Source: Segetibacter aerophilus (GTDB lineage: Bacteria; Bacteroidota; Bacteroidia; Chitinophagales; Chitinophagaceae). Taken from it: a stretch of 64,000 bases of DNA. Under the pieces are notes generated by a model. It had not been told where the DNA came from and ran no database searches. It saw only the letters and a program-made list of their open reading frames with translations. Every line of letters starts with the position of its first letter. Within the stretch, counting starts at the first letter, position 1. Shown here piece after piece: positions 11,934 through 57,430 of this stretch. The position numbers and the translations under genes are program-made. The stretch is from positions 1 through 64,000 of the forward strand of contig NZ_BJYT01000009.1 in the NCBI RefSeq assembly GCF_007991655.1, given 5' to 3'.

Positions 11934-11956
11934 GAACGGATTGCGACGCAACAATG
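11934..11956 (-). repeat. Dispersed palindromic repeat, copy A (GCGTCGC type)
   Basis: The core TTGCGACGCAA (11941-11951) is a perfect odd palindrome. The minus-strand reading CATTGTTGCGTCGCAA followed by TCCGTTC is identical over 23 bp to copy F at 36003. Confidence 0.85.
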
Positions 11957-12047
11957 CTCCTTTCAGGTATATCGCTGGTATCATAATCACCAATTAGAAC
12001 TATTGCCTAATTCTACTTTCAAACGGTATTAAGGGTTTAATTACCTA

Positions 12048-12077
12048 TTGCATAAGAATAGAAATTGCCTAAATTTA
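12048..12077 (+). promoter_or_regulatory. Candidate Bacteroidota-type promoter
   Basis: TTG (12048-12050) is followed after exactly 19 bp by TAAATTTA (12070-12077), close to the phylum consensus TTTG-N19-TAnnTTTG. It is 38 bp upstream of the start codon at 12116. It was found by eye only. Confidence 0.4.
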
Positions 12078-12115
12078 TATTAATAAAAAATTGATGTTTT
12101 ATAAATATAAAAACC

Positions 12116-13345
12116 ATGAAAAAATTATTACTACTCTTATTTGTAATTCCCAGTATTCTATTTGCGCAGAAAGGAGTTCAATTTGAACACGGACTTACAT
12201 GGAAACAAATTCAGGCAAAAGCAAAAGCTGAAAAGAAATACATCTTTATGGATGCCTTTACTACCTGGTGCGGACCATGCCGTTATATGACAGCTAATAT
12301 TTTTCCGCAGGAAAAAGTGGGCACTTTCTTTAATCAAAACTTCATTAACGTCAAAGCGCAGCTTGATACAACGAAAGCTGATAATGATGAAGTGAAAAGT
12401 TGGTATACCGATGCGCACAACATTATGACGAGTTATAAGGTGAACGTTTTTCCTACCTACCTTTTCTTTGATCCTAATGGTAAACTGGTTCATCGGGCTA
12501 TTGGATCTTCTGAGGCCGATCAGTTTCTAGCCAAAGCGAAGGATGCCGTCGATCCTGAGAAACAGTATTATGTTATGTTAGACAAGTACAAAGCCGGTAA
12601 AAAGGACCCTCAATTTTTATTAAGTTTAGCTAAGGCATCGCAGGAAGCTTACGATATGCCAGTAGCTAATAGTGTGTCAAAAGAATATCTCGCTACTCAG
12701 AAAGATATGTTTACTAAAGACAATATAGAATTCATAGATCGCTTTACCAGAAGCACAAAAGACCAGGGATTTTCTTTTATACTTAACAATCCGGAAAAGT
12801 TTGACGCAGTTCGTGGGGAGGGCTCAGCCAATAAAAAACTGACTGAAATTATTTTAAACGAAGAAGTTTTTCCAATGATCTTTAAAAAAGATGCTGGCAT
12901 ACCTGACTGGAAAACTATAACAACAAACTTAACGGCAAAATATCCTGCACAGGCGAATGAGGTGGCTTCAACAGGTAAAGTTTTTTATTATCAAAACAAA
13001 CGCGACTGGAACAACTTTGCAGTGGCAGTACAGGACTATATGAAAGCCTATGGTGCTAAAGCTAACCCTGCTCAACTGAATGAATATGCATGGACCGTGT
13101 TTGAAAATTGTAAGGATATGAGTTGTGTAACTGATGCGCTTGAGTGGAGCAAAAGATCTTTTAAGGATAACAACACGCCCGGCTTTATTGATACTTATGC
13201 AAACATTTTATACAAACTTGGCAGAAAAGATGAAGCAATAGCCTGGGAAGAAAAGGCTCTTGGATTCGCTTCTGAAGGCGACAAGAAAGGATACCAGGAT
13301 GTAATCGATAAAATGAAAAAGGGAGAAAAAACCTGGAAAGAATAA
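12116..13345 (+). CDS. Exported thioredoxin-fold protein with C-terminal helical repeats
   Basis: A 409-residue protein with a signal peptide (core LLLLLFVIPSILF, cleavage near FAQ). A thioredoxin-like domain follows at about 25-145, carrying the active-site motif TTWCGPCRYM and the cis-Pro region VNVFPTYLFFD. The rest is largely helical and probably TPR-like: the C-terminal part (KLGRKDEAIAWEEKAL) reads like a TPR unit. It probably acts as a periplasmic disulfide reductase or redox chaperone, as in the thioredoxin_7/DsbD-C-like proteins of the phylum; its partner is unknown. It is transcribed alone, with a strong terminator 13 bp past its stop. Confidence 0.85.
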   Translation: MKKLLLLLFVIPSILFAQKGVQFEHGLTWKQIQAKAKAEKKYIFMDAFTTWCGPCRYMTANIFPQEKVGTFFNQNFINVKAQLDTTKADNDEVKSWYTDAHNIMTSYKVNVFPTYLFFDPNGKLVHRAIGSSEADQFLAKAKDAVDPEKQYYVMLDKYKAGKKDPQFLLSLAKASQEAYDMPVANSVSKEYLATQKDMFTKDNIEFIDRFTRSTKDQGFSFILNNPEKFDAVRGEGSANKKLTEIILNEEVFPMIFKKDAGIPDWKTITTNLTAKYPAQANEVASTGKVFYYQNKRDWNNFAVAVQDYMKAYGAKANPAQLNEYAWTVFENCKDMSCVTDALEWSKRSFKDNNTPGFIDTYANILYKLGRKDEAIAWEEKALGFASEGDKKGYQDVIDKMKKGEKTWKE

Positions 13346-13357
13346 TTAAGTAATTGA

Positions 13358-13409
13358 GTTAGGGGTTGAAGAATAGCAAAAAGCTATTTTCCAACCCCTA
13401 ACTTTTTTT
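13358..13409. terminator. Strong bidirectional terminator between convergent genes
   Basis: GTTAGGGGTTG (from 13358) pairs with CAACCCCTAAC (to 13402). An inner AATAGC/GCTATT stem surrounds an A-rich loop, and seven T residues follow. It sits between a plus-strand and a minus-strand gene end and can serve both. Confidence 0.92.
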
Positions 13410-15912
13410 ATTGCCCTAAGAGAAAAACGGCATTGGCAAAAAGCATTTTGCCATTTTCCCAAAAGAGCCTGAATAACGGATCTTCTGCTAAAAGGACTAC
13501 AGAACCGCTGCCCATTGGAAGTACACCAAACAGCAGCCCGTCTTTCAGCTGGCTTTTTACTTTTGATCCCGCAAAACCGGTTACGTAACTATTTTTTTTG
13601 ATGATGCCTACGTTCCATCCTTCTTTCAGGAACTCATACACATTCGGATCTTGTTTTAAAGTGTAATAGGTACTCGAATAACCAAAGGCAAGCGGATGAG
13701 TCTCGTCTAACTGCACCTTGTAAATAGCGCCTGGTATGCTATTGTTCAATTCATCCCGATCGCGATTCTCATATTTTTTCAAGACAGAATAATCTACTTT
13801 ATCATCTTTTTTGTCTTCTTTATCTTCTTTCAACTTTACGCCCCAATCACCGGAAGAAAGTTTTTGAACAGCATTTTCCATTGCTATCATTGTACCGCCG
13901 CTGTTTACAAACTCCTTTAATTTATCCGTCACATTCTTATCTGTCAAGTTCCGATAACTACCATTGGGAACGATCAACACATTGTAATTTTTTAAGCTTG
14001 TACGACTTAAGTCGCCTGCGTTAATGAGGGTTAAAGGGTAATCTAGTTGCTGTTCGAATAAATGCCATACTTCGCCTGCCGACCCTGAAGATGTTTGTTC
14101 CCCGGTAAGCAATGCGACTTTAGGAACACGTATAAACCTTACATCAGACGAACCAAAATCGGGTCCTTTATCCATAAACCCTGAAGAAACTCCATCTACC
14201 TCTACATCATTTTTTGCCGCTAAATCATTCAAAGTAGTTTGAAGATTTGCAGGATTTGCTTTTTGAAGTACAATCAAAGTACCGCGGTCGTATTGCTTCT
14301 GGTTGTAACTAAAAGGCTTCTCAGAAAACCTGACCTTAATGCCTTGCTTTAAAAGTTGACCAAGAAATTTTACGCTTTTGATTGAATTGTAGGGTATCAA
14401 ATAGCCGTACGATGAAGATGCAACCGGCTTAACAGTTACAGAAGGTTGATAAGGTACCATAGAAACAGCATCTGACGCTGCATAGGCGTCTACGCCATAA
14501 GCAAACGGTAAAGACCAGGCGGTGATGTCATAGGTAGCAGAATCGACCAACTTGCTCTTCTGCTCCAGCAATACGCGGGCTAAAACTGACTTCGGCTGTG
14601 AAGTACTGACGGCTAGGCTGTATTTTTTCAGGCTCCCATTTTCCTGTTTTTCAGTTGAATAGTTTAAACCTTTAAAGGGCCTGTTTGCCAGCGAGCCAAA
14701 TTCTACTCCGTTCAATTTTAGTAGTTGAGCTATGCTGTTTATTTTCGCTGGATTATCACTGGTAAGAACATACGTCTTCACGGGGTTTCCTTTTCCCACC
14801 TTACTGTCATCGAAAAACTTTTTATATTCTGTCACTAACTTTTGCGCGTTCTGAGATGCCATTTCAATAGTAGAAAGGCCGGTTGTATAGTGATGCGTTA
14901 CCCTGTCAACCAATGTCAAAACTTCCCCTGAGCTGGTTGTTACTCCAAGTCCTCCCCTTGGTCCTCCGCCTTGCTCGAATGTCATACCTATTGCTCCATT
15001 GTATAAGGGGTAGGTATCACCGTAAGATGGGTACAATAAGTCAAACTGTTGCTTCGTAAAAAACAGCCAGCCATTTTGATCAAAATACTTTGCGTTATTT
15101 TTTCCGATTGTGTTTTGAAACTCTCTTTGCCAGGGCGTAATCACCTCGTGAAAAGGCTCAGCTGCAGGCGCAAAATAGTAAGGAGAATTAATGCTTTGCT
15201 CATGAAAGTCCACATGTATTTGTGGCAACCACTGGTTATACTTTACCAGCCGTTGTTGCGTTTCCTTTTGTGTCTGCCAAGCCCAATCTCTGTTCAGGTC
15301 AAAATTATAATGGTTAGTTCTACCACCTGGCCACGGTTCAACGTGTTCACGGGATTGCGGATCAGTATTATAATTTTGACCCACTACCGAATTGAACCAG
15401 TTAACATACCGATCTCTTCCATCCGGATTAATACATGGATCAATAATAATAACCGTATTCTTAAGCCATTCTTTGATAGATGTATTGGTTGGATCAACTA
15501 GTGAAAACAAAGTAAGCATGGCCGCTTCGGAAGATGAAGTTTCGTTGCCGTGCACATTATAGCTTAACCAAACAATTGCAGGATTAGCTGAAGTGGCGGG
15601 AGTAGTTTTATTGGCGTTCATGCCTGCAAACGACAAATTGTTTTGCCGGATGGTCTCAAGATTTTTAAGATTATCAGGGTTAGCAACATACAGCACCAAA
15701 AGTTCTCTTCCCTCATAAGTCTCTCCGTATTTTTCTAATTTAACCATGTCAGGCTTTGCCTGCGCAACCGCTCTTACGTAGTTGACAATTTTGTAGTGAG
15801 GAGTATATCTCGTTCCAATTTTGTAGCCAAGAAACTGTTCGGGAGATTGAAGGGTTTGAGTGTTTGCACAGAGGCTTGTAATTGTAAAAAGTAATAGCAG
15901 GAGATACTTCAT
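13408..15912 (-). CDS. Exported M14 zinc carboxypeptidase with a GATase1-like C-terminal domain
   Basis: The 834-residue precursor has a signal peptide (LLLLLFTITSLCANTQ). The M14 peptidase domain spans about 20-340. Zinc ligands are seen in NVHGNETS (H and E) and in VDFHEQS (His); the catalytic Glu is probably in MTFEQGGG. A later part (about 590-720, with VALLTGEQ and NVLIVPNGSY) resembles the class I glutamine-amidotransferase-like fold often fused to bacterial M14 peptidases of this size. It should trim peptides in the periplasm or outside the cell. It is monocistronic and convergent with the thioredoxin-fold gene. Confidence 0.9.
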   Translation of the reverse strand: MKYLLLLLFTITSLCANTQTLQSPEQFLGYKIGTRYTPHYKIVNYVRAVAQAKPDMVKLEKYGETYEGRELLVLYVANPDNLKNLETIRQNNLSFAGMNANKTTPATSANPAIVWLSYNVHGNETSSSEAAMLTLFSLVDPTNTSIKEWLKNTVIIIDPCINPDGRDRYVNWFNSVVGQNYNTDPQSREHVEPWPGGRTNHYNFDLNRDWAWQTQKETQQRLVKYNQWLPQIHVDFHEQSINSPYYFAPAAEPFHEVITPWQREFQNTIGKNNAKYFDQNGWLFFTKQQFDLLYPSYGDTYPLYNGAIGMTFEQGGGPRGGLGVTTSSGEVLTLVDRVTHHYTTGLSTIEMASQNAQKLVTEYKKFFDDSKVGKGNPVKTYVLTSDNPAKINSIAQLLKLNGVEFGSLANRPFKGLNYSTEKQENGSLKKYSLAVSTSQPKSVLARVLLEQKSKLVDSATYDITAWSLPFAYGVDAYAASDAVSMVPYQPSVTVKPVASSSYGYLIPYNSIKSVKFLGQLLKQGIKVRFSEKPFSYNQKQYDRGTLIVLQKANPANLQTTLNDLAAKNDVEVDGVSSGFMDKGPDFGSSDVRFIRVPKVALLTGEQTSSGSAGEVWHLFEQQLDYPLTLINAGDLSRTSLKNYNVLIVPNGSYRNLTDKNVTDKLKEFVNSGGTMIAMENAVQKLSSGDWGVKLKEDKEDKKDDKVDYSVLKKYENRDRDELNNSIPGAIYKVQLDETHPLAFGYSSTYYTLKQDPNVYEFLKEGWNVGIIKKNSYVTGFAGSKVKSQLKDGLLFGVLPMGSGSVVLLAEDPLFRLFWENGKMLFANAVFLLGQ

Positions 15913-16125
15913 AAGTTATTAATGAAGCCGCGAAAATAATTAAAAGAACAGCAGGGGAGTTTAAAAATCCTGATGCATAAGAATTTTTAGATGGGTGCTA
16001 GCTGAAGTAAAAGGAAGAAATTTTTTAAGGACAGTTTGTTTGACAGTAGAAGTCAAAGCTTCTTTAGGAATTTTTGATGGAGAATAGGCGCAATGAATTG
16101 CACAGAGAAGTCTAACAGACTACTT

Positions 16126-17284: not shown

Positions 17285-17569
17285 AACAATCTTTCAAATT
17301 ATAGTAAAGTTTATCCCTTTAAATCTTTTACTTCTAGCTCGCACCTAGCTCCACTCAAGGGTGTTCGAAAGTAGAACCTTTTTTTAGTTATTGAAAAATG
17401 AGGAAGAGTTGTTTGGACTGTTTTAAAAAAGGAATCGATAATAAGTAAAACAACTGATGTTATAACAACTAAATTTTTTTTGAAGTCAATAAAAAAAATG
17501 GGTATTAAAAATAAATCTTGGTACGGTTTTTTGAATATTGACAGTATTACTAACTTAAAACTTATTATT

Positions 17570-24127: not shown

Positions 24128-24279
24128 TGCTCCGGGTTTTCCGCAAATGTAGTTCAAAAAAGGGATGGCATGAAGAGAGGTGTTTAGTGCTATTGTTAAA
24201 ACGCGTACAGTTTCAAGGTTTTCAGAAGCCTTTTACATTTGGGTAAATTTCTTGTACCAAGCAGTATGTCTTCATTTAG

Positions 24280-24322
24280 CATCGTTGTGTCACACCCTTC
24301 TACTGTTGTATGTTTATTCAAC
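24280..24322 (+). repeat. Dispersed palindromic repeat, copy B (GTGTCAC type)
   Basis: CATCGTTGTGTCACAC starts at 24280, followed by CCTTCTAC and, 12 bp further, ATTCAAC (24316-24322). This tail is shared with copies D and I. It lies between the divergent ccmE and oxidoreductase genes. Confidence 0.85.
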
Positions 24323-24422: not shown

Positions 24423-25547
24423 ATGAAACTTTTTAAGCCCCTTTTCCGCATTTACATAATATTCCTGTTGCAACCTTTAGCTATGCCTCTATTAAATGCG
24501 CAACCTGTTCAGTCTACCCCACTTCGCCTCGCTGTTGTAGGCATATCTCACGGTCATGTTGGATGGATACTAGAACGAAAAAAGCCAGATGTTACGCTTG
24601 TAGGTATTTACGAACCAAACAAAGAGTTAGGCGAACGCAACGCAAAAGAACACCATCTTGATCCTGCTTTATTCTACACGGATCTAAACAAAATGCTGGA
24701 TGCAGTAAAGCCCGAAGCGGTCTCAGTCTTTGGTTCAATAAAAAATCATCTTGCTGCAGTAGAAGCCTGTGCTCCAAGAGGCATTCATGTAATGGTAGAA
24801 AAACCACTCACGTTTAATAACGAGGACGCGAGACAAATGCAGGAACTGGCCAACAAAAATCACATCTATCTGCTTACTAATTATGAGACCTCCTGGTATC
24901 CCACCACCGAGAAAACTTTTCAATTAGTCAATGACAGTAATTATGTTGGCCCTATCCGGAAAGTAGTATTTCATCACGGGCATGAAGGGCCAAAGAAGAT
25001 CGAGGTTCAACCCGAATTTTTTCAAATTCTTACAGACCCAGCGCAAAATGGTGGTGGGGCTATTGTGGACTTCGGATGTTATGGAGCAAATCTTATGACC
25101 TACTTGATGAAAGACCAGGAGCCGCTTTCTGTTACGGCAGTAACAGGTCATTTTCAACCTGCCATTTACCCTAAAGTAGATGATGAAGCTACTATTGTCG
25201 TTACCTATCCAAAAGCTCAATGCATTATACAAGCCTCCTGGAACTGGCCTTTTGCAAGAAAAGATATGGAGGTATATGGCGAGACGGGATACATTATTGC
25301 GACAAATAATAATAACATGCGCCTGAGAAATACGCAAACAAAAGGCGAACAAACGTTGCGGGTAACAACGAAAGAAGTAACAGTTTACACGGACCCGTTT
25401 TCTTACCTGGCAGATGTTGTAAGAGGAAAAATAAAAGTGCCTCACAATGGTTTATACTCCCTGGAAAACAATATGAAAGCTGTACGCATTTTAGATGCAG
25501 CAAGAGAGTCAGCAAGAACGGGGAAAACGATAACGTTAAAGAAGTAG
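24423..25547 (+). CDS. Exported Gfo/Idh/MocA family oxidoreductase
   Basis: The 374-residue product begins with a Sec-type signal region (IYIIFLLQPLAMPLLNAQ). A Rossmann domain follows (LAVVGISHGHVGWIL), then the family motif EKPLTF at about 123-128 and a C-terminal alpha/beta domain with GGGAIVDFGCYGANLMTY. Members oxidise or reduce sugars and cyclitols with NAD(P). Export of such an enzyme through Sec is unusual because the cofactor is bound in the cytoplasm; the signal has no twin Arg that I can see. It is convergent with the broken paralogue that follows. The substrate is unknown. Confidence 0.82.
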   Translation: MKLFKPLFRIYIIFLLQPLAMPLLNAQPVQSTPLRLAVVGISHGHVGWILERKKPDVTLVGIYEPNKELGERNAKEHHLDPALFYTDLNKMLDAVKPEAVSVFGSIKNHLAAVEACAPRGIHVMVEKPLTFNNEDARQMQELANKNHIYLLTNYETSWYPTTEKTFQLVNDSNYVGPIRKVVFHHGHEGPKKIEVQPEFFQILTDPAQNGGGAIVDFGCYGANLMTYLMKDQEPLSVTAVTGHFQPAIYPKVDDEATIVVTYPKAQCIIQASWNWPFARKDMEVYGETGYIIATNNNNMRLRNTQTKGEQTLRVTTKEVTVYTDPFSYLADVVRGKIKVPHNGLYSLENNMKAVRILDAARESARTGKTITLKK

Positions 25548-26719: not shown

Positions 26720-26727
26720 AGTTGGAG

Positions 26728-26752: not shown

Positions 26753-27183
26753 TTGAATGTTAGGACTAGCATGAATCGCTGCAAAAAACCGGCCTCTGTA
26801 ATAAGGAGCTGCTTTACGATTTATTGAGTAAAAACATAGGTTAGTGTGGGATTTTGACGGGACGATTGGCTGTTTTGTTGAGGGAAAAACAAACCTGTTT
26901 TGGGAAATAAGGTTTAAGTCTTTTGAAGGCCATTTTGAAATAGCGACTAAAGATGCAGGAAGGTTTGCAGGTGAAGTGATTGCGACGCAACGATGTTGCT
27001 ATGGAAACGGGTGCCGGAATAAACCTTTTTTTGAAGAACTCCTCCAAAAGACTAGCACGATCAAATTCTGGTACGAAATAAGCTGTTAGCAAATCCGTTA
27101 ATGTTAAGATTTACAAGTGCGGTTCTGTCAAGTTATCCAGAAACATTAATTGGGCTAACTTGCACCGCGTTTTAAAAATAAAT
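26753..27183. other. Intergenic stretch between divergent genes
   Basis: Apart from repeat copy C (26972-26995), these 431 bp show nothing I can assign. Short frames run on both strands between 26841 and 27092 with no family similarity, and promoters for the divergent genes are expected here. Confidence 0.5.
26972..26995 (-). repeat. Dispersed palindromic repeat, copy C (GCGTCGC type)
   Basis: The core TTGCGACGCAA is at 26980-26990, continued by CGATG. The 5' flank GAAGTGA resembles the GAACGGA of copies A and F. Confidence 0.82.
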
Positions 27184-30923: not shown

Positions 30924-31042
30924 TCAATTATCCTTTTTTTATTTTTCTACTTGAAAACATTCCAAATATACACACACGAACCATTGGCGATATCAGGGGA
31001 TTAAGAGAAGTCTTTTTTAGCCAACATCGGGTCTTTTCTATA

Positions 31043-31085
31043 CATCGTTGCGTCGCACACTTTTGCAATGTTTTCAGTATTCAAC
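31043..31085 (+). repeat. Dispersed palindromic repeat, copy D (GCGTCGC type)
   Basis: CATCGTTGCGTCGCAC is followed by ACTTTT and, further on, ATTCAAC (31079-31085), the tail seen in copies B and I. Confidence 0.85.
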
Positions 31086-31156
31086 TTTCTATCGCCGTTT
31101 GCGTCCCTAAAAAAAATCATCCGAACACTTACCTTCCTGATGAAATATGTACAACG

Positions 31157-31177
31157 GTACAAGGGTGTGACACAACG
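31157..31177 (-). repeat. Dispersed palindromic repeat, copy E (GTGTCAC type)
   Basis: On the minus strand it reads CGTTGTGTCACAC then CCTTGTAC. It faces copy D, 71 bp away, in the opposite orientation. Confidence 0.85.
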
Positions 31178-31202
31178 AGCGTTGCATAAAGATTAATGCC
31201 CG

Positions 31203-31284
31203 TAATCTAAACAACCCTAACCTTAAACGCTATAATCCTAAAACCTTAAACCCTAAACCCTAAACCTTAAACGCTAAACCTTGA
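31203..31284. repeat. Telomere-like degenerate repeat (CCCTAAA variants)
   Basis: About ten imperfect units of CCYTAAAC/CCTTAAAC type follow one another, including two exact CCCTAAA units near 31250-31263. The tract ends 33 bp before the stop of the MFS gene. Confidence 0.8.
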
Positions 31285-35828: not shown

Positions 35829-36002
35829 ATAAACGGGCAAGTTTTATAGAATGAGACTAAGCAGATTGAGAGTAGGGTTTTAAAGAAAACTATACCTTTT
35901 TCGTTATTTATCAAATTCTTTCTGGTTCCATTAATACCGGCGAGTTTAAATTTTCTCGCATTTTCATTTCTAGTTGGTACCGGCACCAGTCTTTCAATGA
36001 TT

Positions 36003-36025
36003 CATTGTTGCGTCGCAATCCGTTC
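36003..36025 (+). repeat. Dispersed palindromic repeat, copy F (GCGTCGC type)
   Basis: CATTGTTGCGTCGCAA followed by TCCGTTC is identical over all 23 bp to the minus-strand reading of copy A. Confidence 0.87.
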
Positions 36026-36069: not shown

Positions 36070-37386
36070 TTATGCAATCGTTGAAAAACTTTTCACTTCA
36101 ACTCGCTCAACTTTCCCAACCAAAAAAATATAAGAACATGCGCCGATGCACGCGAGGGCGCCAACAAAAATAAGTGCAGGGGCAAAGTTGCCGCCACCCA
36201 CCAAAAAGCCAATGGCCAACGGAACAACGACAGAGGAAAGATTACCAATAAAGTTAAACACACCCCCTGTTACACCAATCAAATGTTTTGGTGCCAGCGT
36301 TGAAACAAAGACCCATGAAATGGCGGCCAATCCGTTCCCAAAAAAAGCAATGGTCATAAACAAAATAATCAACGCCGTACTATCGACATAATTAGCACCA
36401 ATAATTGAAATTGACAAAATCAGCCCAACGATGATAGGAGTCTTGCGTGCAACATTTACAGAGACTTTTTTCTTAATTAAAAAGTCAGACAGAAACCCCG
36501 AAAGCAGCACTCCTGCAAAAGCTGCGAGAAAAGGAACTGACGCCAGAAAGCCTGATTTTAAAAAGTTCAATCCGCGGTACTTGACGAGGTAAGTAGGAAA
36601 CCATGTAAGGAAAAACCACATGGTTGAAGTTGCACAAAATTGCCCTATATAAATACCCCAAAGCTTTCGATGAATAAATACTTCTCTAAGATTATTCCAA
36701 CTGAATGAAGTCTTCTCCTTGTTGTTTGTAGCTGACCTGTTAATTACACCACCACCTTTTTCAATGTGATCAAGTTCTGCCTGGTTTACTTTTGAGTGCT
36801 CAAGTGGATCGCGGTAAAAAAAGTACCAGACGCCGCCCCATATAATGCCTATTAATCCTGTTATAATAAAGAGACCCCTCCATGTAAGAAAGTGTTCTAT
36901 AGTTGTAAGCACCGGGGTTAAAAAAGCCAGACCAATAAACTGCCCCGACGTATAAGTAGCTATCGCAGAAGCCCTTTCCTTATCAGGAAACCATGCAGTA
37001 ACCACACGATTATTTATAGGAAATGATGGCGCTTCAAAAGCCCCGGTTGCAAGGCGTAGACTGAACACCATACTAAAACCTTTCATAAACCCCTGCAGCA
37101 ATGTAACTGCCGACCACGCTATAAGACAAAGGGTGTATAACACTCTTGGCTTAATTCGATCTACCAAAAGACCACCCGGAATTTGCAGCGCGGCATAAGT
37201 CCAACCGAAGGCAGAAAAAACAAGACCGAGTTGTACAGGCGTAAGTTGTAAGTCTTTAGTAATGGCAGAAGCTGCAACCGAAATATTACTACGGTCCATA
37301 TAGTTAATAATAACGTTGCCGAAGATAAGTGCGAGCATGCCAAAGCGGATGCGAGAAGGTTTGGCAGCAGTTAGTTGATCTGTCAT
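36070..37386 (-). CDS. MFS transporter, ACS family (sugar-acid type)
   Basis: This 438-residue, 12-helix transporter starts at the ATG at 37386. The signature is IINYMDRSNISVAASAI, followed by GWTYAALQIPGGLLVDRI, of the glucarate/galactonate (GudP/DgoT-like) branch. It differs clearly from the two other MFS proteins of the window. It lies between the VapC gene and the Tat-exported enolase-superfamily gene, so import of the aldonate feeding DgoD is a reasonable inference. Confidence 0.86.
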   Translation of the reverse strand: MTDQLTAAKPSRIRFGMLALIFGNVIINYMDRSNISVAASAITKDLQLTPVQLGLVFSAFGWTYAALQIPGGLLVDRIKPRVLYTLCLIAWSAVTLLQGFMKGFSMVFSLRLATGAFEAPSFPINNRVVTAWFPDKERASAIATYTSGQFIGLAFLTPVLTTIEHFLTWRGLFIITGLIGIIWGGVWYFFYRDPLEHSKVNQAELDHIEKGGGVINRSATNNKEKTSFSWNNLREVFIHRKLWGIYIGQFCATSTMWFFLTWFPTYLVKYRGLNFLKSGFLASVPFLAAFAGVLLSGFLSDFLIKKKVSVNVARKTPIIVGLILSISIIGANYVDSTALIILFMTIAFFGNGLAAISWVFVSTLAPKHLIGVTGGVFNFIGNLSSVVVPLAIGFLVGGGNFAPALIFVGALACIGACSYIFLVGKVERVEVKSFSTIA

Positions 37387-37529
37387 GGCAAGTTTCAAAT
37401 CCTAAGTTCTTGTCTATTGAGTTAATAATCAAAACTTTTAATGCCGTTTTTATCCATCTGCTAAATGCTTTTCGCGGAAGAACTTCGAAGCGTAGCAGGA
37501 ACTAACAATAATTTCTAAATTGAAGCCCC

Positions 37530-38214: not shown

Positions 38215-39363
38215 CTACCATTCGGCCACACTACCATCTTCATGTCTCCATAATGGGTTCCGCCAGTTGTGTCCAATTGCCGCCATTTTTCTTACATACT
38301 CTTCGTCGATCTCAATACCAAGACCGGGAGCTTCAGGAATTTTTACATAGCCGTTTTCATAATCAAAAACAGTCTTGTCTGTTAAGTAATCAAGCAAATC
38401 ATTGCCCTGGTTATAATGTATTCCGAGGCTTTGCTCTTGTATAAAAGCGTTGTGGCAAGTAGCATCTACCTGTAAGCAGGCTGCCAGTGCAATAGGGCCG
38501 AGCGGGCAGTGCGGAGCGGCAGCAACATCAAATGCCTCAGCCATAGAAATAATCTTTTTGCACTCGGTAATGCCGCCGGCATGAGAAACGTCAGGCTGAA
38601 TAATATCAGCATAGCCATCCTTTAACAGGTTCTTGAATTGCCACCTTGAAAACATTCGTTCGCCGGTTGCAATTGGAATGGCTGTATGCTGAGCAATGTC
38701 ACGAAGCGCTTCATTATTCTCAGGCAAAACAGGTTCTTCAATAAACATTGGGTGATAGGGCTCCAGCTCCTTTGCCAGTATTTTAGCCATTGGCTTATGT
38801 ACCCTGCCATGAAAGTCAATACCAATACCGACCGAAGGACCAACCGCCTGACGTACCGCATCAATACGGGCAATGGCATGAGTAATCTTTTCGTAAGAGT
38901 CTATGTATTGCAGCTCCTCCGTCGCATTCATCTTTAGAGCAGTAATTCCTTGCGCTATCAAATTTTTTGCGGCTTGCCCAACCTCTGAAGGACGATCGCC
39001 TCCGATCCATGAATATATTTTCATGGCAGTGTGAGCTTTGCCGCCCATAAGTTGGTGTATGGGAGCATTATAGAACTTCCCTTTTATATCCCATAAAGCC
39101 TGGTCTATACCGGAAATAGCACTCATCAGTATTGGTCCACCACGATAAAAACCTGCCCGGTACATCACGTTCCAATGGTCTTCTATGTTCATCGGGTTTT
39201 TGCCGACCAGGTTTTCCATCAATTCATCTACCGCCACTTTTACCGTGGCAGCTCTGCCTTCAACCACAGGCTCGCCCCAGCCAACAATACCTTCATCTGT
39301 TTCAATTTTTAGAAACAACCAGCGAGGAGGTACCTGGAACAATTCATAGCTTGTAATTTTCAT
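38215..39363 (-). CDS. dgoD: D-galactonate dehydratase
   Basis: The 382-residue protein has the same length as the Escherichia coli enzyme as I recall it. It matches it almost along its whole run, for example [32 protein letters not shown] and [15 protein letters not shown], and ends [16 protein letters not shown]. The active-site elements are DFHGR (metal Asp and catalytic His), EEP, GER and the His of APHC. It dehydrates D-galactonate to 2-dehydro-3-deoxy-D-galactonate in the cytoplasm, the substrate of DgoK. No signal peptide is present, in contrast to its Tat-exported relative at 34569. Confidence 0.95.
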
Positions 39364-47362: not shown

Positions 47363-48190
47363 ATGTCAATTTCACAAGAAAAAAAATATTTCAATCTCAA
47401 AGAAAAAGTGATTGTAGTAACCGGCGCTACAGGTATTCTTGGAGAGTCCTTTGTGAGTGGGCTGGTCAATATGGAAGCCAGGGTAGTATTGTTGGGACGC
47501 AATGAAACTGTGGGAGAAGAAAGAATGAACGCACTGAAAGAAAAAGGCGGAGAAGCTATATTTATTAAGACAGATGTTTTGTCAAGGCCTGAGTTGGAAC
47601 GTGCAAGAGACATCACTTTAAATACATGGGGCAAAATAGACGGATTGGTAAATGCAGCTGGTGGAAATGTTCCTGAAGCAGTAGTTGCCCCGGGAGCTGA
47701 TGTTTTTGATTTAGATATGGAAGCATTGAAAAGAGCTTTTGATCTCAATCTATACGGCACCATTTTACCAACCTGCATCTTTGGTAAAGCGATGACCCAA
47801 ACAGGACGTGGCAGTATCGTGAATATCTCTTCAATGGCTGCGCAATCTGCTATTACCCGGGTGTTGGGATATTCAATGGCAAAGGCAGGTATCGACAACT
47901 ATACTCGTTGGATGTGTGTTGAACTTGCTCAACGGTATGGAGATGCTATTCGCATTAATGCCATTGCCCCCGGCTTTTTTGTTACCAACCAAAATCGGCA
48001 TTTGCTGGTGGAAAAAGATGGTTACACAAAGCGCGGCGAAGCTGTTATCCGCAATACTCCCTTTAAACGTTTCGGCAATGCCGATGAATTAATTGGGACT
48101 TTAATTTGGCTTTTAAGTGACGCCTCTGTCTTTGTTAGCGGGGAGGTTATTTGTGTCGATGGCGGTTTCCATATTTTCTCTGGAGTTTAG
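47363..48190 (+). CDS. SDR-family oxidoreductase, probably D-mannonate oxidoreductase-like
   Basis: The 275-residue protein is a classical short-chain dehydrogenase: cofactor motif TGATGILG at about 20-27, NAAGG, catalytic Ser in NISSMAA, and YSMAKAG with Tyr and Lys. The insert PEAVVAPGADVFDLD after NAAGGN and the end VICVDGGFHIFSGV resemble SDR-type fructuronate/mannonate oxidoreductases. The assignment is by memory of the family and would fit the sugar-acid context. It is divergent from susC. Confidence 0.75.
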   Translation: MSISQEKKYFNLKEKVIVVTGATGILGESFVSGLVNMEARVVLLGRNETVGEERMNALKEKGGEAIFIKTDVLSRPELERARDITLNTWGKIDGLVNAAGGNVPEAVVAPGADVFDLDMEALKRAFDLNLYGTILPTCIFGKAMTQTGRGSIVNISSMAAQSAITRVLGYSMAKAGIDNYTRWMCVELAQRYGDAIRINAIAPGFFVTNQNRHLLVEKDGYTKRGEAVIRNTPFKRFGNADELIGTLIWLLSDASVFVSGEVICVDGGFHIFSGV

Positions 48191-48233
48191 ATATTTATTT
48201 TTTTGTAGCCATGGCATTGTTGCTACTCTCAGG

Positions 48234-48257
48234 CATCGTTGTGTCACACTCTTGTAC
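48234..48257 (+). repeat. Dispersed palindromic repeat, copy G (GTGTCAC type)
   Basis: CATCGTTGTGTCACAC starts at 48234, followed by TCTTGTAC. It lies between two plus-strand genes. Confidence 0.87.
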
Positions 48258-48365
48258 TTTGAATGATAATGTCGGCAATTTCTTAAATTGAAAATATTAT
48301 AGGATCAAGCTACAAATAAGAACCAATGTAAAGCCAAATTTCACAATTGCTTCCAACTCCCCCTT

Positions 48366-51900: not shown

Positions 51901-52002
51901 ACCTGGCTTTTAGTTTAGTCAAAAGATGGCTTAGCGCGACTTTGCTGTTTAATGAAAACGAGACCAATTTCCTTTAAACCTATAGTTGCCATAGTACATA
52001 CC

Positions 52003-52023
52003 GTACAAGAGTGTGACACAACG
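52003..52023 (-). repeat. Dispersed palindromic repeat, copy H (GTGTCAC type)
   Basis: The minus-strand reading is CGTTGTGTCACAC then TCTTGTAC, the same 21 bp as the matching part of copy G. It lies between convergent genes. Confidence 0.87.
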
Positions 52024-52115
52024 AAAGCTGCAGAATGAATAAGAGCTAAGTAAAAAATCATCTGCTAAAAAAGCGACTGTGTCATACGAATTTTAAGAAG
52101 ATGGGTAACAATATA

Positions 52116-52163
52116 AAAAGCCTGTAGATAAGTAAAGTAATCTTTACATTTCTACAGGCTTTT
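52116..52163. terminator. Strong bidirectional terminator between convergent genes
   Basis: AAAAGCCTGTAGA (52116-52128) and TCTACAGGCTTTT (52151-52163) pair perfectly; the loop has an inner GTAAAG/CTTTAC stem. It lies 22 bp before the stop of the MFS gene and serves both genes. Confidence 0.93.
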
Positions 52164-52185
52164 ATGTTTTTGTCAATTTTGAAAA

Positions 52186-53520
52186 TTATACCTCTATTGG
52201 TTTCATCTTCGGAACTAGTAACCTAAACATGATAAACCATGCTGCCAGGTAGCCTAATCCGCAATATAGAAACAAGATGTAGTATCCTGTTTCTATATGG
52301 CCTAGTGCTTTATAATGGTCAAACAAAAGACCTGCTACTTTGGCTACAGCCATACCTCCCAGTCCGCCAGCCATACCGCCAATGCCGACAACAGAAGCCA
52401 CAGAATTTTTTGGAAACATATCAGAAACGGTTGTAAAAAGGTTCGCAGACCAAGCCTGGTGTGCAGAAGCAGCAATACCAATTATTACAACAGCATACCA
52501 CATCCCATAACTACCGGCGGCTTGTGAGACCATTACCAACAAAGGGAAAAATGCATAAATAAGCATCGAAGTCTTTCTGGCCTTTACGATGTCCCAACCT
52601 TTTTCTTTTACGAACCACATGGGTAACCAGCCACCGAAAACACTGGCGACACCTGCAAGGGTATACACAAATGCTATAGGCAAGCTAACCTGCATGCCCA
52701 CAAGATGGTATTGAGAATTTAAAAACGCTGGCAGCCAAAAGAGAAAGAACCACCAGATGCCGTCCGTTAAAAACTTACCAACTATGAAGGCCCACGTTTG
52801 TTTAAAGCCTAATAACTGTGTCCATGTAATTTTAGGTTTTTCTTCGCCGGTTGCTGTATGGGTATCAGGTTCAACATCACTGTGGATGTAATCGAACTCT
52901 GCTCTCGAGAGTCTTTTCTGCTTCGAAGGAATTTCATAGTACATAAACCAAAAAATCAACCAGATAAAGCCAATGGCGCCTATGGCGATGAAAGCAATTT
53001 TCCAACTATAATTAATTGCCAGCCAGGGAACTAATAGTGGCGCAAGTATAGCTCCTACGTTAGTGCCCGAGTTAAAAATACCACCAGCAAACGCACGTTC
53101 TTTTTTGGGAAACCATTCTGCTACAGTTTTAAATGCAGCAGGAAAATTTCCTGCTTCGGTAACTCCTAAAAATGCACGAAAAACAGCGAAACTAACAGTG
53201 CCTGTAGCGAAAGCATGTAGGATAGAGGCGATGCTCCATAGGGTTAATGTAAGCGCGTAACCGATCTTGGTACCAATCTTATCAATGAACCTTCCTGCAA
53301 AGACCATCCCTATTGCATAAGCGAACTGAAAGGCTACGACTATATTAGAATAGTCAGACTCTGTCCAGTTAAATTCTTTTTCTAAAGTTGGTTTTAGCAG
53401 GCTGATTACCTGTCGGTCGAGATAGTTAATAGTGGTGGCATAAAATACTAATGCACAAATTGTCCATCTGTATTTTCCTATTTTGGTCTGAAGACCAGTA
53501 TTCATTTCTATGGCTGCCAT
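52186..53520 (-). CDS. MFS transporter, hexuronate/sugar-acid type
   Basis: A 444-residue protein with 12 helices. The ACS-family signature is TINYLDRQVISLLKP, the loop is RFIDKIGTK, and EAGNFPAAFKTVAEWFPKKE follows. It is a close paralogue of the transporter at 31318, including the segment EIPSKQKRLS in the central loop, and the two probably arose by duplication. It is the last gene of the minus-strand cluster 52186-60333 and may import the acid or keto sugar made in the periplasm. Confidence 0.85.
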   Translation of the reverse strand: MAAIEMNTGLQTKIGKYRWTICALVFYATTINYLDRQVISLLKPTLEKEFNWTESDYSNIVVAFQFAYAIGMVFAGRFIDKIGTKIGYALTLTLWSIASILHAFATGTVSFAVFRAFLGVTEAGNFPAAFKTVAEWFPKKERAFAGGIFNSGTNVGAILAPLLVPWLAINYSWKIAFIAIGAIGFIWLIFWFMYYEIPSKQKRLSRAEFDYIHSDVEPDTHTATGEEKPKITWTQLLGFKQTWAFIVGKFLTDGIWWFFLFWLPAFLNSQYHLVGMQVSLPIAFVYTLAGVASVFGGWLPMWFVKEKGWDIVKARKTSMLIYAFFPLLVMVSQAAGSYGMWYAVVIIGIAASAHQAWSANLFTTVSDMFPKNSVASVVGIGGMAGGLGGMAVAKVAGLLFDHYKALGHIETGYYILFLYCGLGYLAAWFIMFRLLVPKMKPIEV

Positions 53521-53606
53521 TTATTTTAGTTATTGAAAAACAAGTGAAATAAGCGTTGTTAGATTTTTAAAATTATTGAATTAGCGGATTACTTAGGTAA
53601 AAACAT

Positions 53607-54788
53607 CTAAAGGATGGTAATGGCAACTTCTGCGCCTTTTCGTTCGGCAGACAAATATCCCGCGTAGATGGTTGCAATTACATCAGACGCCAGGCTGCTA
53701 TCACTTTCTATTAGCTCACCAAAAGCTGCCGATCTATAGAAAGCATCCATTTCATGTTGGTATCCTGCAAACCATCCTTCGTCAGGAGATATCGAAGACC
53801 AACCTTGTTTTGTTTCGGTCTTCTCGACCACGTAAACCTCCTCAAAGTGTTTTTGCGCAGGCGTATAAGCCTGCATAGAAGTATTAGGATTAATGTTGCA
53901 GATAGTTCTGTGATTGGTTGTATTTACTTCGAGCCAGTTATGAACTCCACCAAGAACAAGTTCACTTGCAATTAAATTGGCAATGGTACCATCTTCAAAC
54001 ACTACATGAAGCATTGCAAAATCCTCTGTGTCTTTATAGGTGGTTCTTAAATATCCTTCGTCTTTGAAAGTCGGCATCCGGGTAATGGCGTGCGTGCGCG
54101 CTGATATACTTTTAGGTCTTATTGCCCTTCCATTGCGTGCCCTGCCTTCGGCATGTTTCAGGTAAATAGCAGCAGACAACGGGTGGCAACCCTTTCCTAT
54201 CATCGAACCGCCGCCCGAAAATTTCCATTGTCCGTAAGTAAGGGAATGTGAGCCGGAGTGAGACTCCTCACCATTCATCCAAATAATTTGAGCACCCGTT
54301 TTTTGCAAGAGTTCCCTTTCTTTTTGAATGGCTGGCGCATAGACCCAATTCTCCGCATACATAATCTTGCCTTCACTTGCTTTCTCTGCGTCCAACATTC
54401 TCCTTACACTTTCCATTGCATGATGAAGGCCTTCTTCCTTAGAGAAAGTATCGCCGTTAAAGCTGGTGCTTCCATCTCCAAAATATCCTGTAAATGGTTT
54501 CTCGACTATAACGTGTTTGTTTTGCTGTAAGGCTGCGACAACAATCGGCTCATGCGTAACCGGTGGCGTACATACGTGAACTACGTCAGAATTTTCTATT
54601 AACTGATCGACGTTTTCAAATGCCCGTAGGTTTCTTGGTTCTGTAAATTTTACGAGATTATCTGAAGACGGAGAATATGCCCCGGTGATTTCTACCCTGG
54701 TACTAAAAACCCTTTGTAAAGCTTCAAAGTGAAACTTTGCCGCAAAGCCTGATCCTACTAATCCTGCCCGTAGAACTTTTTTTTCCAT
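53607..54788 (-). CDS. Cytoplasmic Gfo/Idh/MocA family oxidoreductase
   Basis: The 393-residue protein has no signal peptide. The N-terminus is the Rossmann motif RAGLVGSGFAAKFHFEAL, EKPFTGYFGDG includes the family Lys-Pro pair, and a C-terminal domain contains GGSMIGKGCHPLSAAIYLK. It is NAD(P)-dependent by family. It is the only one of the three oxidoreductases of this cluster that should remain in the cytoplasm, where it could reduce or oxidise the imported keto sugar. It lies 86 bp upstream of the MFS gene with no terminator between. Confidence 0.85.
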   Translation of the reverse strand: MEKKVLRAGLVGSGFAAKFHFEALQRVFSTRVEITGAYSPSSDNLVKFTEPRNLRAFENVDQLIENSDVVHVCTPPVTHEPIVVAALQQNKHVIVEKPFTGYFGDGSTSFNGDTFSKEEGLHHAMESVRRMLDAEKASEGKIMYAENWVYAPAIQKERELLQKTGAQIIWMNGEESHSGSHSLTYGQWKFSGGGSMIGKGCHPLSAAIYLKHAEGRARNGRAIRPKSISARTHAITRMPTFKDEGYLRTTYKDTEDFAMLHVVFEDGTIANLIASELVLGGVHNWLEVNTTNHRTICNINPNTSMQAYTPAQKHFEEVYVVEKTETKQGWSSISPDEGWFAGYQHEMDAFYRSAAFGELIESDSSLASDVIATIYAGYLSAERKGAEVAITIL

Positions 54789-54870
54789 ACGTCTTCTTCA
54801 AAAAGTTTCTAAAAGTTCAAACCAATAATTGTTTGATTTTTATTGAGCCAATCTGTGTGCTACTATGTGG

Positions 54871-54912
54871 CATTGTTGCGTCGCACTCTTTTACCTTATT
54901 TCAATATTCAAC
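54871..54912 (+). repeat. Dispersed palindromic repeat, copy I (GCGTCGC type)
   Basis: CATTGTTGCGTCGCAC, then TCTTTTAC and, 11 bp later, ATTCAAC (54906-54912), as in copies B and D. Confidence 0.86.
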
Positions 54913-54923
54913 CAAAAATGCGT

Positions 54924-55775
54924 CTAGCTCATTGTTGACATTACCCCTCTGAAATAACCAATAGACTCAGCCATTCCGGGAAGCGGATCGCTCATATCTT
55001 TTTCGAACTCGATGCTGCACATTCCTTTGTAATTATTCTTTTTCAGCGCTTTTATTACAGCGTTAAAATCAATTACGCCTCTGCCGATTTCAATTGCCTT
55101 ACCTTCTTTCTGAGCAAGTGATACGTCTTTAATATGCAGATCATACAAACGACCTTTAAAATCTTTGATAGCTTTCACCAGGTCCGTTCCTGCCCTTTCA
55201 GCATGACCGATATCTAAACAAAGTCCCATTCTTGAGTCCCTGTCTTTAATGCGATCGTACACCTGTTGAGGACCCGGATACAACGCATCTTCAGGCCCGT
55301 GATTATGGATGGCTATTCTAATGTCAGTTTCTTTTACTTTCTGTTCAGTATAGTCAATCAGGTCATAAGTTGGTACGCCTACAATCAGCTTCACTCCTAC
55401 CTTTTTTGCATAATTAAAAGCCTCGTCCACCGCCTGTTTTGTTCTCATATAGATAACCCCAACGGCGTACACATTAATATTTGCAGCTGCGAACTGAGAC
55501 ATTACAGATTTAATCTTTTCGTCATTACTATTGATAGGCAGATGAAATTCTTTTAAAGAAAGGTTTTGAACGCCTATACGTTTCATCATTGCAATCGACT
55601 TCTCCAAGTCAAACTTATTGAACGTGTAGCCGGCGATACCAACAGGTAATAAATCACCTTGCTTTGCTACAAAATTTTTTGATTGAGTTGCTGCCTGGTT
55701 AATAAAAGGCACGCTGACAGCACCGGCAAAACCGAGTGTTGCCTTCTGAATAAATTTTCTTCTCGACTGTTCCAT
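54924..55775 (-). CDS. Tat-exported sugar-phosphate isomerase/epimerase-like protein
   Basis: A 283-residue precursor with a twin-Arg signal (SRRKFIQKATLGFAGAVSV). The TIM-barrel metal ligands lie in IRIAIHNHGPED (His), MGLCLDIGHAERAG (Asp and His), RLYDLHIKDVS (His) and the final MCSIEFEKD (Glu). It is a paralogue of the protein at 48366. Together with the neighbouring oxidoreductases it should act on a keto sugar in the periplasm; the exact reaction is unknown. Confidence 0.85.
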   Translation of the reverse strand: MEQSRRKFIQKATLGFAGAVSVPFINQAATQSKNFVAKQGDLLPVGIAGYTFNKFDLEKSIAMMKRIGVQNLSLKEFHLPINSNDEKIKSVMSQFAAANINVYAVGVIYMRTKQAVDEAFNYAKKVGVKLIVGVPTYDLIDYTEQKVKETDIRIAIHNHGPEDALYPGPQQVYDRIKDRDSRMGLCLDIGHAERAGTDLVKAIKDFKGRLYDLHIKDVSLAQKEGKAIEIGRGVIDFNAVIKALKKNNYKGMCSIEFEKDMSDPLPGMAESIGYFRGVMSTMS

Positions 55776-55813
55776 ATTAGCAATTATTATTTTAATCGTT
55801 ATTGTTAGAATGT

Positions 55814-57211
55814 TTATTTGGTATTAGTGGTTGCCATTTCCAAACCTTTTGTAGCGGTATAATATTTCGCCAACATATTAGGTACCTCCCACTCGGGCAA
55901 TTTTTTGTCTTTCAAATACTGAAGGTAGCGTGTCATCACTTGTCCAAAATGAGCTTCATGACCGATCTTATAAGATTGAGGAATAACAAGCTTCCACCCG
56001 TTCGCCGTTTTTTCTGTTGTCACACCTGCATAAGAAGCGTTCAGTCTTGTGATCGTATTCTTTAACGTAGACTCAAAACTGTTTTGATTACCAACGGGAA
56101 TAATATATAGTGTTGGCTGGTAACCCTCTTCTTTTCCCTGCTTGATTTCCAGGTTCGACTTTGTTCCTTTCAGGATAGAATAATGGGTATCACCACCACC
56201 GGGAGGAGCTTTATATTCCCAACGTGCTATTGTCTTAACGTGCACGTCTTTCAAGGTGTAGTTAATTTCGCCATTGCCGTGCGTTTGCAAAATGGTATCA
56301 CTCTTTACATATTGCTTTAAGTATTCCGGGAAAGTACTTTGATTTGTGATGAGGCTAAACTGCGAAAGGGTTAAAGGCTCAGGCCATATTCTGGAAGAAT
56401 TAATCTTGATGTCTTTTTTATAATCAATTGTCTGATCGGGAAAACATTCCCATTGTACGAGGTCAATTAAATGCGTTCCTACATCCGCTATGGCGTCGCC
56501 TTGCTGGGTGGGATCGAAGAACCAAGAGGGCCTCGTCAATACTTTGCCTGAAACAAACTTATAGAAAAAGTGTACGCTTTCCAGTATTACCGAAGGGTCG
56601 TTCGAGGTTCCTTTTTTTAACTCGCCAAACAGCTCGGGCGATTGGGCAAGTTCCCTTTGGAGTAGGTTAGTAATTTCGGACCGTTCGGTCATGATATCAT
56701 ACAACAACAATTTCTTCTGAGCCGCTTTTGCAAAAGTGTTCTGCAACAAATTAAAATTTTGAAAGTTGATCGCCATCGGCTTATCACCTAACACATTTAA
56801 ACCTGCATCAATTGCTTTGTTGATGTATTCTGTTTTCTGACGGTTGTTACCTGCCAACACCACCACGTTTCCTTTCTTTTCGCTAAGCATTTTCTCAAGG
56901 TAATCGCTGCCAGTATACACCTTTTCGACCCACTTGGTCGGGTTTTCTTTTCTCTCATTGTATTGCTTAATCAGAGCAAGGTGCGCCTCTAATTCTGCTC
57001 CACCGGGTGCATAAACATTTACCTCCGGATCGATACCGCTATACATTTCTTTTTGCACCAAGGCTGCATGGAAATGACCAGGATCTAACGTAATTATTTT
57101 TACATTTCCATTACCAGCCGAAGTATTCTTCGATGCGCTATTCATTGTATGGCAACTATTAAGAACTGAAACCAATATAATTGCGAAAGTTATTTTAACC
57201 GGGTATCTCAT
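55814..57211 (-). CDS. Lipoprotein of the Gfo/Idh/MocA fold, diverged type
   Basis: A 465-residue protein with a lipoprotein signal (IILVSVLNSC, lipid Cys at about 19). The N-terminal part (VKIITLDPGHFHAALVQKEM, GDKPMAINFQNF) is a diverged Rossmann domain with DKP for EKP, and DVGTHLIDLVQWECFP follows. The C-terminal domain is of the putative-oxidoreductase type found in Bacteroidota lipoproteins. Cofactor binding is uncertain because the glycine-rich loop is not clear. It lies between the isomerase and the Tat-exported oxidoreductase genes. Confidence 0.8.
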   Translation of the reverse strand: MRYPVKITFAIILVSVLNSCHTMNSASKNTSAGNGNVKIITLDPGHFHAALVQKEMYSGIDPEVNVYAPGGAELEAHLALIKQYNERKENPTKWVEKVYTGSDYLEKMLSEKKGNVVVLAGNNRQKTEYINKAIDAGLNVLGDKPMAINFQNFNLLQNTFAKAAQKKLLLYDIMTERSEITNLLQRELAQSPELFGELKKGTSNDPSVILESVHFFYKFVSGKVLTRPSWFFDPTQQGDAIADVGTHLIDLVQWECFPDQTIDYKKDIKINSSRIWPEPLTLSQFSLITNQSTFPEYLKQYVKSDTILQTHGNGEINYTLKDVHVKTIARWEYKAPPGGGDTHYSILKGTKSNLEIKQGKEEGYQPTLYIIPVGNQNSFESTLKNTITRLNASYAGVTTEKTANGWKLVIPQSYKIGHEAHFGQVMTRYLQYLKDKKLPEWEVPNMLAKYYTATKGLEMATTNTK

Positions 57212-57326
57212 TCCTGTTTTTACTGTTGAGCTTGAAAGATAATTAAGTTTTGAATAGGTCTTTTTTTCTTCAGATTTTCAAATTCTTGCGCCTTCTTTAT
57301 GTTCTTGATAATTATTCCATTTTATG

Positions 57327-57358
57327 AAAAATGACATGAAATGTTCGATTCCATGTCA
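57327..57358 (-). terminator. Probable terminator downstream of the Tat-exported oxidoreductase gene
   Basis: ATGACATG (57331-57338) and CATGTCAT (57352-57359) form an 8-bp stem with a 13-nt loop. On the minus strand the stem runs into four to five U residues. Repeat copy J lies between it and the gene. Confidence 0.5.
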
Positions 57359-57409
57359 TCTGTTTTTGTAGATAGAAAACTTTTAAAAGGGCCGCCATAA
57401 AAAGATGAA

Positions 57410-57430
57410 GTACAAGGGAGTGACACAACG
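57410..57430 (-). repeat. Dispersed palindromic repeat, copy J (GTGTCAC type)
   Basis: The minus-strand reading is CGTTGTGTCACTC then CCTTGTAC, one change from copy E. Confidence 0.86.

Follow-up and report, generated by a model that had tools for sequence, protein, structure and literature searches.

The first 64,000 nucleotides of contig NZ_BJYT01000009.1 of Segetibacter aerophilus (the window) carry ten copies of a dispersed, mainly intergenic DNA element of about 80 bp. Same-orientation copies of this element avoid each other within about 1.3 to 2 kb, whereas opposite copies may lie side by side. An earlier inspection of the window (the original prediction) had recognized the ten copies, lettered A to J from left to right, by a shared core, TTGYGTCRCA, and had taken them for a DNA dyad bound by a dimeric protein or for a repetitive extragenic palindromic (REP)-like element with two subfamilies. 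We tentatively interpret the element as an oriented, REP-like DNA site that is read by a protein, with close copies in direct orientation being mutually incompatible.

Abundance, strand-specific spacing, and anatomy

The genome spans 5.89 Mb in 79 contigs, and the window belongs to contig 9. TTGYGTCRCA has nine exact matches in the window against 0.35 expected, and none of 100 shuffles reached nine; copy J, with the core TTGTGTCACT, differs from this motif in the last core base. A whole-element profile recovered exactly the ten predicted copies in the window at their predicted positions, and, as had been read from the letters, found no further copy in the first 11.9 kb or the last 6.5 kb. Across the genome, the core pattern matched 464 times and the reversed pattern 22 times (a 21-fold excess). 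Sampled DNA comprised 800 kb of contig 1 (C1) plus the window, 864 kb in all. There, a 26-column weight matrix found 125 sites, with none for the reversed matrix at the same score; the matrix misses AATCC-type cores, window copies A, C, and F among them, and seven of the ten window copies pass it. A profile hidden Markov model (HMM) gave 135 copies at its cutoff in the same DNA. Extrapolated by proportion, the copy number is roughly 850 to 920 per genome.

The strands of copies A to J nearly alternate (- + - + - + + - + -), and neighbors less than 2 kb apart alternate in orientation nearly always. Among 116 same-strand gaps in S. aerophilus (G000), two were shorter than 2 kb, versus 12.6 by orientation shuffling (minimum of 5 in 5,000). 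The close relative G065 had two such gaps among 123, one of them 614 bp, versus 13.8 by shuffling (minimum of 5 in 2,000). A genome of a second genus, G058, contains 1,639 matches of a 14-base core, and its spacing was taken from 189 copies listed over 0.56 Mb with a single core pattern. Shuffling of orientations in this list gave 29.3 same-strand gaps shorter than 1.9 kb (minimum of 16 in 3,000), and 2 of 187 were observed. The shortest same-strand gaps in G058 were 1,276, 1,375, 1,978, and 2,045 bp, versus opposite copies down to 48 bp apart, start to start. Gaps between its 100 plus-strand copies had a mean of 6.3 kb and a standard deviation (SD) of 4.1 kb; after subtraction of 1.9 kb, the coefficient of variation was about 0.93, as expected for a dead zone followed by random spacing. 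Both short-gap exceptions in G058 were pairs of the same core type, and no direct pair of different types lay within 1.9 kb, indicating that core likeness alone does not explain the exclusion.

The dependence on distance was also seen in the share of tandem neighbors in four genomes (G000, G065, G061, and G067). This share was 0/30 below 300 bp, 1/11 to 1 kb, 2/36 to 2 kb, 10/52 to 3 kb, 21/82 to 5 kb, 28/68 to 8 kb, 18/39 to 12 kb, 11/18 to 20 kb, and 7/9 beyond. Close pairs (<300 bp) from five sets were convergent in 57 cases, divergent in 7, and tandem in 1; the sets overlap in part, as the named-genome set shares copies with G065. A preference of close pairs for two different core types was suggestive in G058 (14 of 18), and in a larger set it came to 42 of 63 versus 56% expected; it is not claimed here. 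Local duplication was rejected as the source of close pairs, whose mean flank score was 9.4, versus 8.6 (SD, 3.5) for random pairs, yet the best pair scored 24.5, above the random 99% mark of 19.0.

Alignment of 482 copies from all sources gave an asymmetric consensus of about 80 bp: a T-tract with TTTG, CCRGC, a pyrimidine-rich spacer, ACATCGTTGYGTCRCWCNCTTGTAC, a T-rich arm, and TTCARC, with columns outside the element near background. The core is 20 bp with a short dyad; 22-base cores (AATCCGTTCATC and similar) also exist, and window copies A, C, and F are among them. In one alignment (A1), the arms on either side of the core resemble each other in direct orientation (TTGTAC...ATTCAAC before it and TTGTAC...ATTCAGC after it), as though the core were set between two direct copies. 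Core columns 3 and 7 had the highest mutual information among all column pairs and were paired in 97% of copies. The window heptamers are as described in the original prediction, GCGTCGC in A, C, D, F, and I and GTGTCAC in B, E, G, H, and J, with none mixed. The 125 sites comprised 69 GTGTCAC, 36 GCGTCGC, 10 GCGACGC, 4 mixed, and 6 other heptamers. Pooled from all DNA examined, 387 of 394 cores were symmetric at positions 3 and 7 (198 T/A and 189 C/G), with 5 mixed and 2 other; this pool was deduplicated by context and includes orthologues and related species, so that its events are not independent. The rarity of mixed forms foreseen from ten copies is borne out in both sets. A second dialect, GTTGCNACGCTCNGTTCA, was present in 30 of 69 family genomes, and its two N positions were complementary in 43 of 45 counted copies (27 G-C, 13 C-G, and 3 T-A); two exceptions were seen by eye among the matches listed, both in G025.

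No RNA structure was found. Consensus folding of 112 of the 125 copies with alifold gave an empty fold in either direction, the first 60 copies had mean z scores of 0.01 and -0.26, and in an Rfam scan of the window one tRNA alone reached its gathering score. The absence of RNA structure had been anticipated, although on the grounds of a one-base loop; that wording is not quite accurate, as a loop of three bases could be closed by core positions 3 and 7.

The predicted intergenic location was confirmed, since 104 of the 125 sites lay outside called open reading frames (ORFs), 14 in ORFs shorter than 100 amino acids, and 7 in longer ones; the ORF calls used for this purpose were crude. Between co-directional genes, 41 copies had the same orientation as the genes and 30 the opposite one; 19 copies lay between convergent and 14 between divergent genes. 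Counts divided by intergenic lengths gave 1.27 copies per kb in convergent, 1.13 in co-directional, and 0.52 in divergent regions. Divergent regions thus hold fewer copies. The orientation of the element is not dictated by the genes around it: the split of 41 versus 30 is near even, and the alternation is independent of gene strand.

Conservation in place and taxonomic range

Among 19 relatives compared by ribosomal protein L5 identity, the closest were G064 (99%) and G065 (98%). G065 is probably a mixed assembly, as it carries two distinct L5 genes (L085 and L086, with 93% and 98% identity to the query). S. aerophilus was compared with 1.11 Mb of G065 over 160 adjacent gene pairs. The element was present in both genomes in 30 intervals, in G065 only in 12, in S. 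aerophilus only in 2, and in neither in 116; in one of the two S. aerophilus-only intervals, it was visible in G065 below threshold. Orientation matched in all 30 shared intervals. Over 32 orientation-matched copy pairs, identity was 0.90 to 1.00 at core positions 0 to 8 and 0.55 to 0.90 at positions 9 to 18. It was about 0.35 to 0.7 at most flanking positions, with 0.71 to 0.90 in the T-tract (-36 to -34) and 0.58 to 0.87 just before the core (-10 to -3). Maintenance of place and orientation while flanks diverge indicates that selection or drive holds the cores, rather than mere persistence. Two mixed cores in S. aerophilus are symmetric C/G cores in G065. At C1:769327, the entire core type differs (C/G with AATCC in S. 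aerophilus, T/A in G065) with identical place and orientation; at C1:592026, the core type likewise differs between S. aerophilus and G061, and G065 lacks a copy there. In the more distant G061, two of five element-bearing intervals were still occupied (43 gene pairs compared). As for a possible MITE or IS end, for which near-identical copies, target duplications, and an autonomous partner would be expected, six intervals aligned with G065 revealed no clean element-sized insertion.

Of 20 S10 operon loci that have an rplN-rplX interval, 9 carry an antisense element in it, and these span three genera; G025 has an additional sense copy there, and G066 has a split remnant with an insert of about 24 bases (L089). 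The same interval in G061 (L088) and G062 (L093) holds a different palindrome, of the CTCCRACTYYCTAAAGKGAGAGT type. In the rplB-rplV interval of G067 (L087) and G063 (L091), hairpins (TCCCGATAGCTATCGGGA; CCCGTCC...GGGCGGG) split the element core into halves at a place similar to that of the G066 insert, as if the core in L087 and L091 were a landing place for other palindromes.

The strict core GTTGYGTCRCACNCTTGTAC was present in 24 of 60 family genomes, S. aerophilus included. A variant with W at core position 9 occurred in all 10 genus genomes searched, in 1 to 888 copies; among 247 class genomes it was present in 3, each of them a member of the family, versus none of 242 outside it. A profile search of 60 class genomes matched S. 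aerophilus only, with no match in one same-family genome and 58 others; it used strict filters and scored up to 75 candidates per genome, making it a weaker test than the core search. In these searches, the element was not found outside its family, Chitinophagaceae. Carriers among the matches listed include Segetibacter (with S. koreensis DSM 18137), Ferruginibacter, Flavisolibacter, Niabella, Parafilimonas, Foetidibacter, Deminuibacter, Pinibacter, Paracnuella, and Longitalea, along with metagenome-assembled genomes titled Chitinophagaceae, Chitinophagales, Sphingobacteriales, Bacteroidetes, or Bacteroidota. The strict core was also found in 28 stretches of IMG/VR viral contigs (L264 to L291).

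Interpretation and alternative explanations

The spacing rule treats direct and inverted copies differently, takes no account of genes, and is without strand bias along C1, which fits a directional reading of the element. In the interpretation that we tentatively prefer, a trans-acting protein would read the dyad core plus one asymmetric arm and act on DNA in one direction. Same-facing copies within about 2 kb would be harmful (the interval is deleted) or useless (one is redundant) and hence lost, whereas inverted copies would be tolerated, often as head-to-head pairs like those of REP dimers. Candidate processes are recombination or single-strand processing between direct copies and directional uptake or loading. 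Cores may be maintained by selection or by copying or uptake drive, and sites would decay where the factor was lost, which could explain a genus mate with a single strict copy (G062). A broader proposal, which we hold with less confidence, is that these are a new class of oriented Chitinophagaceae chromosomal sites with interchangeable core dialects, used by a protein whose activity would run along one strand for about 2 kb; same-facing exclusion would be the footprint of that activity, so that neighbors alternate. Repeats scattered through a genome commonly pass for neutral debris or remnants of transposons; here the copies stay put while their surroundings diverge. A direction-and-distance rule that differs by strand gives physical information on the enzyme or process reading the element, and the paired core changes offer a natural specificity series for finding the reader.

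Several observations weigh against this interpretation. No reader protein was found among the Y1 and Y2 transposases examined, neither of which tracks the element. Exceptions to the rule exist at 614 bp (G065), 1,276 and 1,375 bp (G058), and 222 bp (a tandem pair in viral contigs), and copies of another type between those listed for the single G058 core pattern would have gone unseen. The tandem share beyond 12 kb exceeds one half (18 of 27), a small number that the rule does not account for. The lack of strand bias along C1, counted above as fitting, can also be held against it. In the comparison of S. aerophilus with its relatives, no inversion was assignable to pairs of elements: besides 145 collinear triples there was a single local flip, and it did not have elements at both breakpoints. 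This result speaks against an active recombinase. Near-identical copies were not found among the 125, whose flanks are at most 65% alike and barely above shuffles, and the average likeness within close pairs does not exceed that of random pairs; neither result gives a hint of how new copies arise. A range of 1 to 888 strict copies within one genus is odd for a needed host site. Finally, linked columns 5/12 and -6/-4 are noncomplementary, so part of the linkage is subtype history.

The original prediction had proposed looking for a REP-associated transposase, and this lead failed. The search for an autonomous partner covered Y1 and Y2 transposases. Around 31 Y1 loci, 11 elements occur in 94 kb (1 per 8.6 kb), versus 1 per 6.9 kb in S. 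aerophilus, arguing against an REP of a REP-associated tyrosine transposase (RAYT). Copy number is also independent of Y1 genes: G061 has 81 strict copies and no Y1 gene, G024 has 130 and none, and G062 has 1 copy and 7 Y1 genes. An IS91-type Y2 link was rejected; G024 has no Y2 match and G061 has one partial match. With this result, a likeness between CTTG/GTTC in the core and the targets of IS91 was no longer considered. A promoter reading of the T-tract and its spacing was weak and was also dropped. Words of the form CGTCATTGCGAG, which are typical of the CGTC-tagged REP class, occur apart from the element, three times in 864 kb. With more than 100 copies (464), extragenic placement (104/125), a symmetric core, and inverted close pairs, the element is an REP in the wide sense only. 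It belongs to neither the CGTC- nor the GTAG-tagged family, as the terminal tag, 8- to 9-bp stem, and short tail are absent from consensus and folding (definition from PMC3733652).

Di Nocera and others (2013; PMC3733652) describe CGTC-tagged REPs as high-copy-number sequences of 20 to 40 bp, with an end tag, an 8- to 9-bp stem, and a CCA-like tail. Reported in Bacteroidetes among others, these lie mostly between co-directional and convergent genes; head-to-head dimers predominate, tail-to-tail dimers are rare, head-to-tail dimers are negligible, and there is no dedicated transposase. Our element resembles them in abundance, intergenic place, dimer bias, and the lack of a transposase tie, but it is about 80 bp long, holds CGTC or TGTC inside the dyad, and has no 8- to 9-bp stem after it. 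GTAG REPs and their mosaic arrays (BIMEs), as described in PMC2817692, are also dispersed extragenic palindromes of alternating orientation. Unlike those with a RAYT, the element has no GTAG tag and a copy number independent of Y1 genes, and its alternation spans kilobases rather than being confined to one cluster. The RAYT at L071 on contig 2 of S. aerophilus is surrounded by other palindromes, with a single copy of the element directly upstream. This Y1 (RAYT-like) gene (L071, 1280 to 2340) is flanked by palindromes of its own (CCCCNNAGGGGCTACC-like, by eye) and sits between genes that we take to encode a MoxR-type ATPase and a DUF58-type protein.

The evidence was also weighed against five other explanations. 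A nuclease or transposase that reads hairpins might process an REP-like element in its single-stranded form; it would join direct copies in one exposed strand with loss of the interval and leave inverted copies, on different strands, safe. The exposed single-strand stretch would be about as long as an Okazaki fragment. Strand-specific exclusion over about 2 kb and Watson-Crick covariation at different positions in two dialects (387/394 and 43/45) agree with this, as does head-to-head dominance below 300 bp (57:7:1), a bias shared with CGTC-tagged REPs (PMC3733652). We nevertheless consider such processing unlikely, since folding yields no stable structure, G024 matches neither Y1 nor Y2, G061 lacks Y1 and matches Y2 once and in part, C1 lacks strand bias, and copy flanks are not alike. 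An uptake sequence, spread and kept by preferential uptake in transformation, would reward one copy per stretch and direction, with close direct copies decaying. DNA uptake sequences have species dialects, and the dialects of the element, its high copy number, its core with T-rich arms, and its conservation in place without gene-linked orientation are compatible with that role. Those of Pasteurellaceae and Neisseriaceae similarly number hundreds to thousands of copies, and PMC1939737 cites significant even spacing for them. The element, however, is much longer (about 80 bp) and mainly intergenic, inverted short-range pairs are far more the rule, and its spacing is orientation specific. In the openly licensed literature, to which our search was limited, we found no prior description of the element and no paper joining Chitinophagaceae with an intergenic repeat, a repetitive extragenic palindromic sequence, or a DNA uptake sequence, and we regard an uptake role as rather improbable.

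Rather improbable to the same degree is a static binding site for a dimeric regulator or nucleoid protein, as the original prediction first proposed. The dyad core, purifying selection in place, and absence of an RNA fold suit such a site, yet divergent gene pairs hold fewer rather than more copies, and a symmetric dyad alone would not give strand-specific spacing. What stood of that prediction is a dispersed, intergenic, REP-like DNA element with a paired core and subfamilies, in hundreds of copies with rare mixed forms and no RNA fold; it had noticed only the center of an element that is about 80 bp long, asymmetric, and of more than two core types, and it had missed the strand-specific spacing, which is the most unusual property of the element. 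A transcript-level terminator or processing site is very unlikely. It would agree with the paucity of copies between divergent genes and with the many co-directional copies that start shortly past a stop codon (distances read by eye), but orientation relative to co-directional genes is near even, no fold was found, and alternation is independent of gene strand. Least plausible, to the point of being hardly credible, are passive repeats whose second form arose by CpG loss on both strands, an alternative that had been raised with the ten copies. The two mixed copies that are symmetric C/G in G065 do show that single-step intermediates exist. Mixed forms nonetheless make up only 5 of 394, CpG is not depleted (observed/expected ratio of 0.93 in the 800 kb of contig 1), C/T at a neighboring CpG (-2/-1) varies in both forms, and the second dialect, covarying as G-C, C-G, and T-A, is not CpG driven.

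Copies and neighboring genes in the window

The profile model (R1) was built from 52 copies, with window copies B and D in the training set, and its matches in the window had E values from 3e-16 to 1e-4. The strongest was copy B (24245 to 24322, + strand; core TTGTGTCACA at 24285 to 24294), a full element scoring 54.7 bits (E of 3e-16). Copies D and E form a convergent pair 127 bp apart: D, the left partner (31009 to 31087, +), has the core TTGCGTCGCA at 31048 to 31057 and scored 42.6 bits, and E, the right partner (31138 to 31215, -), has TTGTGTCACA at 31166 to 31175 and scored 39.7 bits. The core TTGTGTCACA is also that of G (48195 to 48277, +; core at 48239 to 48248; 38.4 bits) and H (51985 to 52062, -; core at 52012 to 52021; 42.4 bits), and TTGCGTCGCA is that of I (54834 to 54912, +; core at 54876 to 54885; 39.2 bits). 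Copy J (57391 to 57458, -; core at 57419 to 57428), of the TGTGTCAC-TC type, scored 43.0 bits. Scores were lower for three further copies with the core TTGCGTCGCA. Copies A (11928 to 11989, -; core at 11942 to 11951; 20.0 bits, E of 3e-5) and F (35974 to 36017, +; core at 36008 to 36017; 19.2 bits) are of the AATCCGTTC core type and matched the profile over part of its length, and copy C (26958 to 27022, -; core at 26981 to 26990; 18.0 bits, E of 1e-4) is of the AATCACTTC core type.

Several genes of sugar and sugar-acid catabolism lie at 24423 to 59622 of the window. A galactonate dehydratase (38215 to 39363), a galactonate-type transporter (36070 to 37398), and a D-mannonate oxidoreductase (47363 to 48190) each scored above the NCBIfam cutoff, and several paralogous oxidoreductases in the same region scored below theirs.

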